Assembly (NCBI GenBank): GCA_938083135.1
Contig: CALLKY010000047.1
Span: 1-64,000, forward strand
Direction of reading: 5' to 3'
Source of the DNA: an uncultured Alphaproteobacteria bacterium
GTDB lineage: Bacteria > Pseudomonadota > Alphaproteobacteria > Bin95
Length of the DNA: 64,000 bases
Shown: positions 6,739-61,823 of the stretch, in pieces
Layout of the letters: each line of letters opens with the position of its first letter
Position numbering within the stretch: position 1 is the stretch's first letter
The notes under the pieces: model-generated
The model's input: only the letters and a program-made list of their open reading frames with translations
What the model was told of the DNA's origin: nothing
The model's database searches: none
Made by a program: the position numbers and the translations under genes

Positions 6739-6800
6739 CGTCCGGTTCCCTATGCGCAAGAGTGCGACGGACCTGCGGCGAATACCGGCAAGCCTGCCAC

Positions 6801-7005
6801 CCCCTCTGTCATTGGAACCTGAAAGATTCTCCGCAAGCCAAGGTGGCGGCGCACAGATTGCATCTTCGGTGGGGCGCATCGTGCGCGCCCGCTTTCCAGA
6901 GTAGCCTCACCCCGCGGTCCGTTTGCCTGAGAGTTTCCGGGGCGGTTGCTCCTTCGGCGACGCTTCCAGGCTTGCAGCCCATCCGCGTTCTCTCCCGGCG
7001 GGGAT
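6801..7005 (-). promoter_or_regulatory. tandem glycine riboswitch upstream of gcvT
   Basis: Read on the minus strand there are two consecutive glycine aptamers. The first shows CGGGAGAG, then GCCGAAGGAGCAA, then CTCTCAGGCAAA followed by GGACCGCGGGG. The second begins at ACTCTGGAAAGCG, then CACCGAAGATGCAATC, then CTTTCAGGTTCCAATGACAGAGG. These blocks are the conserved aptamer elements, and the gene downstream is gcvT, the standard target. Such tandem switches usually raise expression when glycine is abundant. About 60 nt separate the second aptamer from the start codon and no U-tract terminator is visible there, so control may be at translation (inference). Confidence 0.95.
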
Positions 7006-7021
7006 CGACAGCTATGAAGTC

Positions 7022-58908: not shown

Positions 58909-60000
58909 TTAGATCACGCGGCAATCTCTGACGATTTCCGGTTTGACCTTCAGGCCGTGGCCCGGTGTCTCTGGTGCTGTCATGATGCCATTGACCGGTT
59001 TCGCCCAGTCGATCCACAAATCGCCCAGCAGGCCCATATCTTCAATGATTTCGCCGTTTGTGATCGACGCCATCAAGTGAATCATGAGTTCAGGATAGAG
59101 ATGCGGCGCGATTTTCAGGCCGAAGGTTTCTGCGATGGCGGCTGTCTTGCGCAGGTCCGTCAATCCGCCCCGGATAACGTCCGGCTGTAGGATCGGGCAG
59201 ACCGGGTTCTGGAAAAAAGGCTTCAGGTCATAGCGCGTGAAGTGGCTCTCGCCGCCGACAACCCGTGTGTCCAACGCATTAGCGACGCGGAAATAGCCTT
59301 CATAGTCATCTGGCACGACAGGCTCTTCCAGCCAGTAGATGCCGTAGTCTTGAATTTTCTTACCCATTAGGATGGCATGGTCGGCAGTGTAGGCCATGTT
59401 TGCATCAACCATGATGTCAACATTATCGCCCACGGCTTCGCGAACGAGGCGGACGTTTTCAACATCATCCTTATCGCCCCAGACGAAGCCGATCTGCATC
59501 TTGATCGCTGAGAAACCTTCGCTCTTGAAGCGCAGCGCTTTCTCAATCATGCCTTCGCGCGTCATGCCGCGCCACACGCCCGAGCCGTAAGCTTTGACTT
59601 CTTTCTGCGCATGTCCCCATAGCCGATGGAGCGGCATGTTCGCTGCTTGGCCAACGATATCCCAAAGTGCCACATCAATGGCGGAAAGCCCAAGCACGGG
59701 CGCGCCGCCGCGACCGTCAGCCAAGGTGGAGGTCCAGAGGTCCTTCCAGATGCCTTCAACTTCAGTGGCGTCCCGGCCAATGATGCCAGGTGCTAGCTGT
59801 TCTTCAATCGCTGCTTTGGTGGTGCGCATGCCTTCACGGAGATACAGCTGGTAGCCAAGCCCGACATGTCCTGCCGCTGTTTCGATCTCACACAGCAATA
59901 TATCGCGGTCCCGGCTGTATCCGGCCTGCAATGAGGGTTGCTCCACATAGGGCACGCTTAGCAGTATGACGCGGACATCCTTGATGGTGAGATCACCCAT
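58909..60000 (-). CDS. enolase-superfamily enzyme (mandelate racemase / muconate lactonizing type)
   Basis: A 363-residue enolase-superfamily member. Ordered features: the N-terminal capping domain, FSAIKMQIGFVW with the KxK-like base position, the metal-ligand Asp in IMVDANMAY, Glu in YWLEEPVVPDD, Glu in VVGGESHFTRYD, then the His in KIAPHLYPELM. The metal site looks complete (Asp, Glu, Glu). The substrate, probably a sugar acid or a related carboxylate, cannot be assigned. It ends only 3 bp from the converging deacetylase gene; the DUF1330 gene lies just upstream, 3 bp away, in one transcription unit. Confidence 0.9.
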   Translation of the reverse strand: MGDLTIKDVRVILLSVPYVEQPSLQAGYSRDRDILLCEIETAAGHVGLGYQLYLREGMRTTKAAIEEQLAPGIIGRDATEVEGIWKDLWTSTLADGRGGAPVLGLSAIDVALWDIVGQAANMPLHRLWGHAQKEVKAYGSGVWRGMTREGMIEKALRFKSEGFSAIKMQIGFVWGDKDDVENVRLVREAVGDNVDIMVDANMAYTADHAILMGKKIQDYGIYWLEEPVVPDDYEGYFRVANALDTRVVGGESHFTRYDLKPFFQNPVCPILQPDVIRGGLTDLRKTAAIAETFGLKIAPHLYPELMIHLMASITNGEIIEDMGLLGDLWIDWAKPVNGIMTAPETPGHGLKVKPEIVRDCRVI

Positions 60001-60003
60001 GGT

Positions 60004-60291
60004 TTAGACGCCCTCTACAATGATCATTTGGAAATCAGCCGCATTTTCGCGGGCCGCACGGGCTTGGCGATATTCCGGAGAATCATAAAAGGCCTTCGCA
60101 GCCGCAACGTCATCAAACTCCAGCACGACGACGCGGCGCGATTCGTCATCGCCTTCCATGGTGACGATCGGGCCACCGCGCACCAGGAATTTGCCGCCAT
60201 TCTTGGCGATCGCATTGGGGGTCAGGGCTTGGTAGCCCTTGTACTTCTCAGGGTTGGTCACGTTCACGTGGGCGATCACATAGGCTGTCAT
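60004..60291 (-). CDS. DUF1330 family protein
   Basis: A 95-residue ferredoxin-like-fold protein. MTAYVIAHVNVTNPEKYKGYQ and VVVLEFDDVAAAKAFYDSPEYRQA are the DUF1330 signatures. Function is unknown. The start is ATG 60291 with AGGAGC upstream; the open frame to 60492 is not conserved and runs under the divergent selenoprotein. Co-transcribed with the enolase-superfamily gene. The 78 bp up to 60370 holds both divergent promoters. Confidence 0.9.
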   Translation of the reverse strand: MTAYVIAHVNVTNPEKYKGYQALTPNAIAKNGGKFLVRGGPIVTMEGDDESRRVVVLEFDDVAAAKAFYDSPEYRQARAARENAADFQMIIVEGV

Positions 60292-60369: not shown

Positions 60370-61029
60370 ATGGCTGAAATTAGCTATCCGGCAGACTGGC
60401 GGGATATCCCGGCTGAACGCTGGGCGAAAATGATGATGACGCCTGAAGACTATACGCAGATGCGTGCCAGTCGCCTTGCCCGCGAAGCCCATGCGCCTGA
60501 AGTTGGCGACATCGCGCCGGATTTCACAGCCGAACGGTTGACCCCCAGCGGCAAGCCCACGGGCGCGACGCTGACATTATCTTCGTTGCGCGGTAAACCA
60601 GTCGGCCTCGTCTTCGGCTCCTACACCTGACCGCCATTTCGCAAACAGGCCGTGCGCCTGAACGAAATCGCAGCGACGTTCCAAGATAAAGTCCAATTCC
60701 TCTGCGTTTATATCCAGGAGGCACATCCATCAGACGGTTGGCAGGTCGAAGCCAATCTGGATGATGACGTGATCTATGATACGCCGACGACCAAGGATGA
60801 GCGCGACGCGCTGGCTGAAGTCTGCATGCTGAAACTAGCGCTCAACATGCCCATGGTCGTCGATGACATGGAAGACACGATTGACGCCGCCTATAACGCC
60901 TTGCCAGAGCGGCTATATCTGCTGGATGCTGATGGTGCTGTGCAATTCAAAACCGTCGCAGGTTCCCATGGCTTCGACCCAGAAGCCTGGCACGCTGCGA
61001 TCAACGATCATGTGAGTATGAAAGGATAA
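60370..61029 (+). CDS. iodothyronine-deiodinase-like selenoprotein (in-frame TGA read as selenocysteine)
   Basis: The frame from ATG 60370 is open to a single TGA at 60628-60630 and continues in the same frame to a TAA at 61027-61029, giving 219 residues with Sec87. The TGA lies in VFGSYT-Sec-PPFR, the active-site motif of iodothyronine deiodinases (SCT-Sec-PPF). After it come VYIQEAHPSDGW (residues 113-124, His119 matching the conserved EAHxSDGW His), then PMVVDDMEDT and NALPERLYLLDADGAV, all aligning in order with the vertebrate family as I recall it. A thioredoxin-fold beginning, GDIAPDFTAERL, precedes the site. The ribosome binding site AGGGAAGGG sits about 9 nt before the ATG. A stem-loop consistent with a bacterial SECIS starts 5 nt after the TGA. 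The homology on both sides of the stop argues against a pseudogene. The substrate is unknown; reductive dehalogenation or thiol-peroxidase chemistry are candidates. The enoyl-CoA hydratase gene follows after 5 bp. Confidence 0.93.
60636..60668 (+). promoter_or_regulatory. candidate bacterial SECIS element
   Basis: A lower stem ATTTCG/CGAAAT (60636-60641 with 60663-60668) and an upper stem CAGGC/GCCTG (60646-60650 with 60656-60660) close a 5-nt loop CGTGC. The upper loop begins 20 nt after the TGA and has a G at its second position followed by T, matching what is known of SelB-recognised hairpins. It lies inside the coding region, as bacterial SECIS elements must. Confidence 0.75.
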
Positions 61030-61034
61030 GCCTG

Positions 61035-61823
61035 ATGGCTGTATTAGAGACGGAAACCCACGGGCAGATCTTTGTTATGCGGATGAACAGGCCTGAGAGC
61101 CTGAATGCGCTGAACTATGAAATGCGCTGCGCCATGGCGGAAGCCTGGACGGAATTTGAAGCCAGCAAAGACCTGGAGGTCGCTATTTTCACCGGTTCCG
61201 GGCGCGGGTTCTGTGCGGGTGAAGATATGAAAGAGGCGCTGAAAGACAACACGCCCGGTGGCCGCAAGTTGCCGATGGAAGACCCGTTCCGCACCGGCAA
61301 AATCAGCAAGCCGATTATTGGCGCGATCAACGGTTTTGCCATGGGCGGTGGGTTCATGCTGGTCGAAGGCACGGACCTTCGCGTCGCTGCAGATACGGCC
61401 ATTTTTGAGGTGTCTGAAGCGAAGCGTTGGCTACTTGGCGGCTATAATCATGGCCATATCGCTAATGTGGCCTATCCCGTGGCACTTGAAATGGCGATGG
61501 GGTATCGGTTCACTGCGAAGCGCTTCCATGAAATTGGTTTCCTGAACCGGGTCGTTCCAGCGGCGGACTTGATGGATGAGGCCATGAAAATGGCTGAACA
61601 CCTAATGACCCTGCCGCCAGCAGCGCGGGTCAACACGCTACACATCATGCGCCAGATGCGCCCCAGCATCACGCCCGCTTTTGATGATCTCGCGACCCGC
61701 CTGCATGCCCACGGCGACCTGAGCGATCTTATTGAATCCCGTGCAGCATTCGCAGAAAAGCGCAAGCCGAATTTCAAAGGCTGGCTCAAGCCTGAGGATC
61801 GGTATCGCTTGCCGCAACTGTAG
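61035..61823 (+). CDS. enoyl-CoA hydratase/isomerase family protein
   Basis: A 262-residue crotonase-fold protein. The oxyanion-hole segments FCAGEDMKEAL and GAINGFAMGGGFMLVEGTDLRVA are present. A Glu in FEVSEAKRWLLGG lies in the region of a crotonase catalytic residue, so lyase/hydratase activity on a CoA thioester is plausible. It starts 5 bp after the selenoprotein gene, so both are probably on one mRNA. The last 38 bp overlap the converging EamA transporter gene. Confidence 0.9.
   Translation: MAVLETETHGQIFVMRMNRPESLNALNYEMRCAMAEAWTEFEASKDLEVAIFTGSGRGFCAGEDMKEALKDNTPGGRKLPMEDPFRTGKISKPIIGAINGFAMGGGFMLVEGTDLRVAADTAIFEVSEAKRWLLGGYNHGHIANVAYPVALEMAMGYRFTAKRFHEIGFLNRVVPAADLMDEAMKMAEHLMTLPPAARVNTLHIMRQMRPSITPAFDDLATRLHAHGDLSDLIESRAAFAEKRKPNFKGWLKPEDRYRLPQL

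Follow-up and report, generated by a model that had tools for sequence, protein, structure and literature searches.

The window analysed in this study, a stretch of 64,000 nucleotides from an uncultured Alphaproteobacteria bacterium, carries on its forward strand, at 60370-61029, a gene that very likely encodes a selenocysteine-containing member of the bacterial deiodinase-like family. The gene runs in a single frame from ATG 60370 to TAA 61027-61029, and its sole internal stop is the TGA at 60628-60630; the joined protein has 219 amino acids and reads MAEISYPADW...FGSYT, the TGA codon, and PPFRKQA...SMKG. The original prediction had described two same-frame ORFs split by exactly one TGA at 60628, with deiodinase similarity on both sides that would be very unlikely by chance, and both points were borne out. 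The Pfam model PF00837 (T4_deiodinase) matched the joined protein over residues 16-205 with 87.9 bits (E 8.6e-25; cut-off, 27 bits), with the TGA inside the match, and Dio3 was matched by profile at E 1.3e-33. Moreover, an independent profile, built from Cys homologues and mouse Dio2 and Dio3 alone with the window sequence left out, was applied to the window's complete set of stop-to-stop ORFs with a minimum length of 60 aa, 534 in number. It was significant only for the two ORFs that flank the TGA (E 7.9e-35 downstream and 1.6e-6 upstream), and the next best ORF reached E 0.81. The pairing is thus far beyond chance, because the profile selects exactly this pair of 534, and membership of the product in the deiodinase-like family is virtually certain. 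The choice of ATG 60370 as start is backed by relatives that have the same N-terminus, MAEISYPADWR, and by a Shine-Dalgarno-like purine-rich stretch just upstream. The region is very probably one intact gene for a small selenoprotein of the thioredoxin fold, probably a cytoplasmic one. Automatic annotation would make two hypothetical proteins of it, and the selenocysteine reading restores one family member.

Homologues were gathered from whole genomes and GTDB contigs, and their comparison shows that the UGA at 60628-60630 is under selection as the predicted selenocysteine codon. The same TGA was present in all 17 UPPF-type sequences, namely the window gene and 16 further copies (42-91% identity) from 10 other genomes and one further MAG contig. 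Relatives of 31-35% identity (L020, L021, L054-L056) carried a cysteine codon, TGC or TGT, at this site, and the nucleophile position was exclusively Sec or Cys in the 28 homologues aligned, none of which had another residue. Against the same-genus gene L049, dN/dS was 0.104/0.51 before the TGA and 0.033/0.53 after it, which argues that the downstream part is under purifying selection at least as strong as that on the upstream part. The genome itself (4.15 Mb, 99.99% complete) harbored the complete machinery for selenocysteine, including a tRNA-Sec with anticodon TCA, SelB (452 bits) with SelA directly upstream, and SelD. Among the relatives, SelB was found in 11/11 genomes with UPPF Sec forms versus 0/8 with only UPPF-like Cys forms, and in 13/13 when two genomes of the UxxC type (G194, G287) were added, counts that take no account of kinship; SelB was also present in four genomes carrying a more distant Cys group. 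From these comparisons, incorporation of selenocysteine at position 87 is predicted with high confidence. Of the conditions that the original prediction had named as refuting (absence of the sel genes, homologues with a residue other than Cys or Sec, a TGA due to sequencing error), none held.

Two other readings of the TGA were considered. A true stop, arising from gene decay or from a sequencing error, has some precedent in truncated copies in two relatives (G281:C112, L042; G306:C36:23307, L043), in which similarity starts just after the Sec codon and which are probably decayed or misassembled paralogues. A sequencing error does not fit the recurrence of the TGA in 16 further copies, and purifying selection downstream of the codon together with a conserved hairpin speaks against a pseudogene, so the probability left to this reading is negligible. 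The context UGAC is known as leaky and occurs in all copies, which would suit decoding as some other amino acid by readthrough or under an altered genetic code. However, selA of the same genome itself stops at a TGA overlapping the selB start (ATGA, L008 1501-1504), cysteine is the sole alternative residue among homologues, and the Sec machinery is complete; decoding as another amino acid is therefore very improbable.

The selenocysteine reading is further supported by a SECIS-type apical hairpin at 60646-60660 (+), CAGGC-CGUGC-GCCUG, which begins 15 nt past the TGA and has a G at loop position 2, the arrangement of bacterial selenoprotein genes, in which a hairpin with an apical-loop G follows shortly after the UGA. 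The 5-bp stem around the loop CGUGC paired in 16/16 distinct sequences, and compensatory changes were seen at two of the five stem pairs (C-G, G-C and A-U at one; G-C and U-A at the other). Paired cells amounted to 100% versus 83.9% in shuffles, the covariation score was reached by 0/500 shuffles, and sliding the stem partner abolished the pairing signal. Furthermore, the third bases of the Q/K/E93, A/S94 and V95 codons were invariant in 17/17 sequences, and the V95 codon, which lies in the loop, stood alone among the conserved four-fold codons in having its third base fully invariant (1.00, against 0.35-0.94 for the rest). The stem was absent from the Cys homologues when these were compared with the Sec forms. 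Judged solely on folding energy, the hairpin of the gene at 60370-61029 shows no unusual stability (z -0.81), and the case for the hairpin therefore rests on comparison, which shows a putative SelB-type element directly downstream of the UGA. A covariance model of the hairpin gave one strong match in the genome, the gene at 60370-61029 itself (77 bits); the next two matches (E 0.13 and 0.28, both on contig 19 near phenylacetate-pathway-like genes) were judged from their ORFs to be chance. An Rfam scan of the window found no SECIS family, its sole matches being glycine riboswitches far away, which form a tandem at 6800-7008 (-) with 64.4 and 44.1 bits.

The AlphaFold2 model of the product (pLDDT 93.8) was nearest among solved structures to mouse Dio2 (TM 0.69/0.82) and then Dio3 (0.65/0.74) (9h48, 4tr3), with ResA and peroxiredoxins ranking behind the deiodinases in the PDB fold search. 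The EAHxxDGW edge of the omega loop is characteristic of Dio proteins and is present exactly, as EAHPSDGW. The active-site motif S84-Y85-T86-U87-P88-P89-F90-R91 (60619-60642, +) aligned with SCT-U-PPF of Dio3, and the stretch from Y114 through E117-A118-H119-PSDG to W124 (60709-60741, +) contained the proton-relay residues and the loop edge. Sec87, Y114, E117, A118 and H119 aligned with Sec170, Tyr197, Glu200, Ala201 and His202 of Dio3, and all five positions (the first as Sec or Cys) were invariant in 28/28 homologues from three subgroups. In Dio enzymes the Tyr, Glu, Ala and His positions serve in the proton relay and in anchoring of the omega loop (PMC11592359; PMC7506546). Ser84, Thr86, Trp124 and an Arg at the position of Arg225 were also present. 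The original prediction had pointed to EAHPSDGW and PERLYLLD as vertebrate features, and this agrees with the alignments, in which EAHPSDGW is identical in Dio2 and Dio3 and PERLYLLD aligns with FERLYVIQ of Dio3.

The active site of the Dio enzymes is not wholly kept, however, because five of its positions are without a counterpart. The positions of Dio3 His219, Tyr257 and Arg275 were occupied by non-equivalent residues in the alignment; Arg275 and Tyr257 are contacts of the T4 carboxylate and His219 is a binding residue (PMC7506546). The recycling cysteines were likewise absent, with a tyrosine, Y85, where Dio3 has Cys168 and Dio2 has Ala, and no Cys at the position of Cys239; Cys168 is needed for glutathione recycling in Dio1 and Dio3 (PMC9141512). 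Cys152 was present in 17/17 Sec forms and is, by its conservation in the alignments, a candidate resolving residue. The window protein thus resembles vertebrate Dio1-3 in fold, in the S-x-T-U-PPF motif, the Tyr/Glu/His relay, the EAHPSDGW edge, the Arg225-like Arg and the ERLY segment, and differs from them, besides the missing residues, in having no membrane anchor and in carrying a bacterial hairpin within the coding region, whereas Dio1-3 have a SECIS in the 3' UTR. In the tree, mouse Dio2 and Dio3 joined the UPPF side, apart from the UxxC/Cys side with REAHPGE (99/98), although, with long branches, their precise position is uncertain.

A scheme for the reaction can be proposed. The ribosome, with SelB on the hairpin, would insert Sec87, whose selenolate may then attack an electrophilic atom of a small substrate, which could be a peroxide oxygen or a halogen bound to an activated carbon, probably an aromatic one. 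The proton would be supplied by the Ser84/Thr86/Tyr114/Glu117/His119 network, which is retained from the active site of Dio enzymes. As the protein has no equivalents of the Dio recycling cysteines, Sec oxidised to Se-X or Se-OH might be reset by a low-molecular thiol or glutaredoxin, perhaps through the invariant Cys152. As the main reaction, reductive dehalogenation of the Dio type and peroxide or thiol-redox chemistry would each have a substantial chance somewhat short of even, and some other reaction would be rather unlikely.

The possibility that the protein acts as a selenium-dependent peroxidase, or as a thiol oxidoreductase, with a redox role like that of peroxiredoxins or ResA, without dehalogenation, is a serious one that falls a little below an even chance. 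The thioredoxin fold is common to these proteins, an AhpC-TSA match of 40.1 bits and a weak Redoxin match were obtained, ResA and peroxiredoxins come next after the deiodinases in the fold search, and two paralogues have a glutaredoxin-domain gene nearby; a redox role was also proposed by Zhang et al. 2005 (PMC1088965). On the other hand, peroxiredoxins and ResA have another active-site motif, and the full-length fit and relay residues of the window protein are of the deiodinase type. The invariant positions coincide with the Dio relay (Y114, E117, A118, H119), the EAHxxDGW edge is the one characteristic of Dio proteins, and UPPF leaves no second Cys at the UxxC position. An iodothyronine deiodinase proper, by contrast, is highly improbable. 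The active-site motif and loop edge are the same as in Dio1-3, but the residues at the positions of Arg275, Tyr257 and His219 are not equivalent and thyroid hormone is not expected in a free-living bacterium; with deiodinase-like chemistry, thyroid hormone would hardly be the substrate. The caution of the original prediction about the natural substrate was right, and the absent thyroxine-binding residues strengthen it. With the vertebrate motif and proton relay kept in the absence of these residues, the UPPF group offers a soluble enzyme for the study of deiodinase chemistry before thyroid hormone.

Members of the family were described as early as 2005, and the gene at 60370-61029 is a well-supported new member of it. 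Zhang et al. reported bacterial deiodinase-like proteins with 4 Sec and 6 Cys sequences (PMC1088965), a 2008 GOS study reported 22 Sec and 21 Cys forms (PMC2398784), and a 2026 review counts the function of these proteins among those still largely unknown; the original prediction was thus correct in placing such selenoproteins in marine data. The window protein shares with this family PF00837, an in-frame UGA with a bacterial hairpin, and the occurrence of Sec and Cys forms. It differs from the UxxC motif given for the family in reviews (PMC9312934, PMC13188914) in having U-P-P-F with no second Cys, like the vertebrate enzymes. NCBIfam NF038285 ('deiodinase family protein') was matched with 176.7 bits over residues 40-207, a score under the cut-off of 250; the model has 347 positions, and its N-terminal part is missing from the window protein. 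In the available text of the literature on the family, no description was found of the alphaproteobacterial UPPF subgroup, of the hairpin covariation or of linkage to selA-selB, and no enzymological study of a bacterial protein of the family was found in the literature searched, which consisted mostly of open-access papers. Among the viral contigs searched there was no relative, and among the plasmids searched the sole match was a distant one (28%) in Mycolicibacterium. Two further groups were observed: a separate UxxC selenoprotein group with SFTUPYC and REAHPGE (L035, L036), which in either genome (G194, G287) lies at a distance of about 13-14 kb from selB, and Cys deiodinase-like proteins of a gammaproteobacterial-type family (L054-L058, f188), with a hydrophobic N-terminal part, Pfam scores of 98-115 bits, above those of the Sec forms, and genomes without SelB.

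A new arrangement is seen in three genomes belonging to a single related genus (G378, G210, G300; L070, L071, L072), in which the deiodinase-like gene heads a selA-selB string. There, about 15-35 nt separate the Sec-deiodinase-like gene from the selA ORF downstream of it, and selB follows; in G113, the gene is downstream of selA-selB. In the former three genomes, a strong hairpin surrounds the selA start with the AUG in its loop and with arms that differ in sequence and covary. SelB-dependent autoregulation has been reported in Escherichia coli, and these hairpins recall it. Formate dehydrogenase is the usual Sec client of alphaproteobacteria; TIGR01553 had no match in the window's own genome at E 1e-40 and was also not found in the genomes with the gene beside selA-selB. 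The position of the gene ahead of selA-selB in some relatives suggests that it ranks among the main clients of their Sec system. Same-genus genomes without the deiodinase-like gene retained SelB, and with no TIGR01553 formate dehydrogenase found, other Sec proteins must exist. A broader proposal is that the UPPF selenoproteins truly catalyse the reductive dehalogenation of halo-aromatics from the environment, a chemistry ancestral to vertebrate deiodination, and that in some alphaproteobacteria the selA-selB linkage ties the Sec machinery to selenium supply via the selA-start hairpin; taken as a whole, this is unlikely. In the window's own genome, a strong hairpin was also observed just before the selA start (C138, L100 about 1208-1250; z about -2).

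A crotonase/enoyl-CoA hydratase-like gene (61035-61823, +; PF00378) begins 5 nt beyond the stop codon of the deiodinase-like gene, and the two are probably co-transcribed. Divergent from the deiodinase-like gene lie a DUF1330 gene (60004-60291, -; start assigned to ATG 60291 in an ORF that at its longest reaches 60492) and, by domain match, an enolase-superfamily (MR_MLE) dehydratase-like gene (58909-60000, -). This order was kept in the same-genus genome G393, whereas in G080, G391 and G392, which are without the deiodinase-like gene, MR_MLE and crotonase genes lie apart; because the order varies in this way, the deiodinase-like gene is regarded as accessory and its neighbours as no firm guide to the substrate. 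The neighbourhood was set aside for that purpose, as conservation stops at the genus and none of the conserved neighbours points to a particular substrate. In two family members, homologues of the MR_MLE neighbour adjoin selB (G388:C112, G195:C229). Among the paralogues, G390 carries two Sec-deiodinase-like genes in tandem (L062 143-1542), with a separate TGA and hairpin in each of them, and in G210 and G378 a PhyH gene and the glutaredoxin-domain gene follow. In G378:C15 (L024), a Sec-deiodinase-like protein is fused to Alkyl_sulf_C, the C-terminal, sterol-carrier-like domain of alkyl sulfatases, a fusion hinting at a lipophilic ligand.
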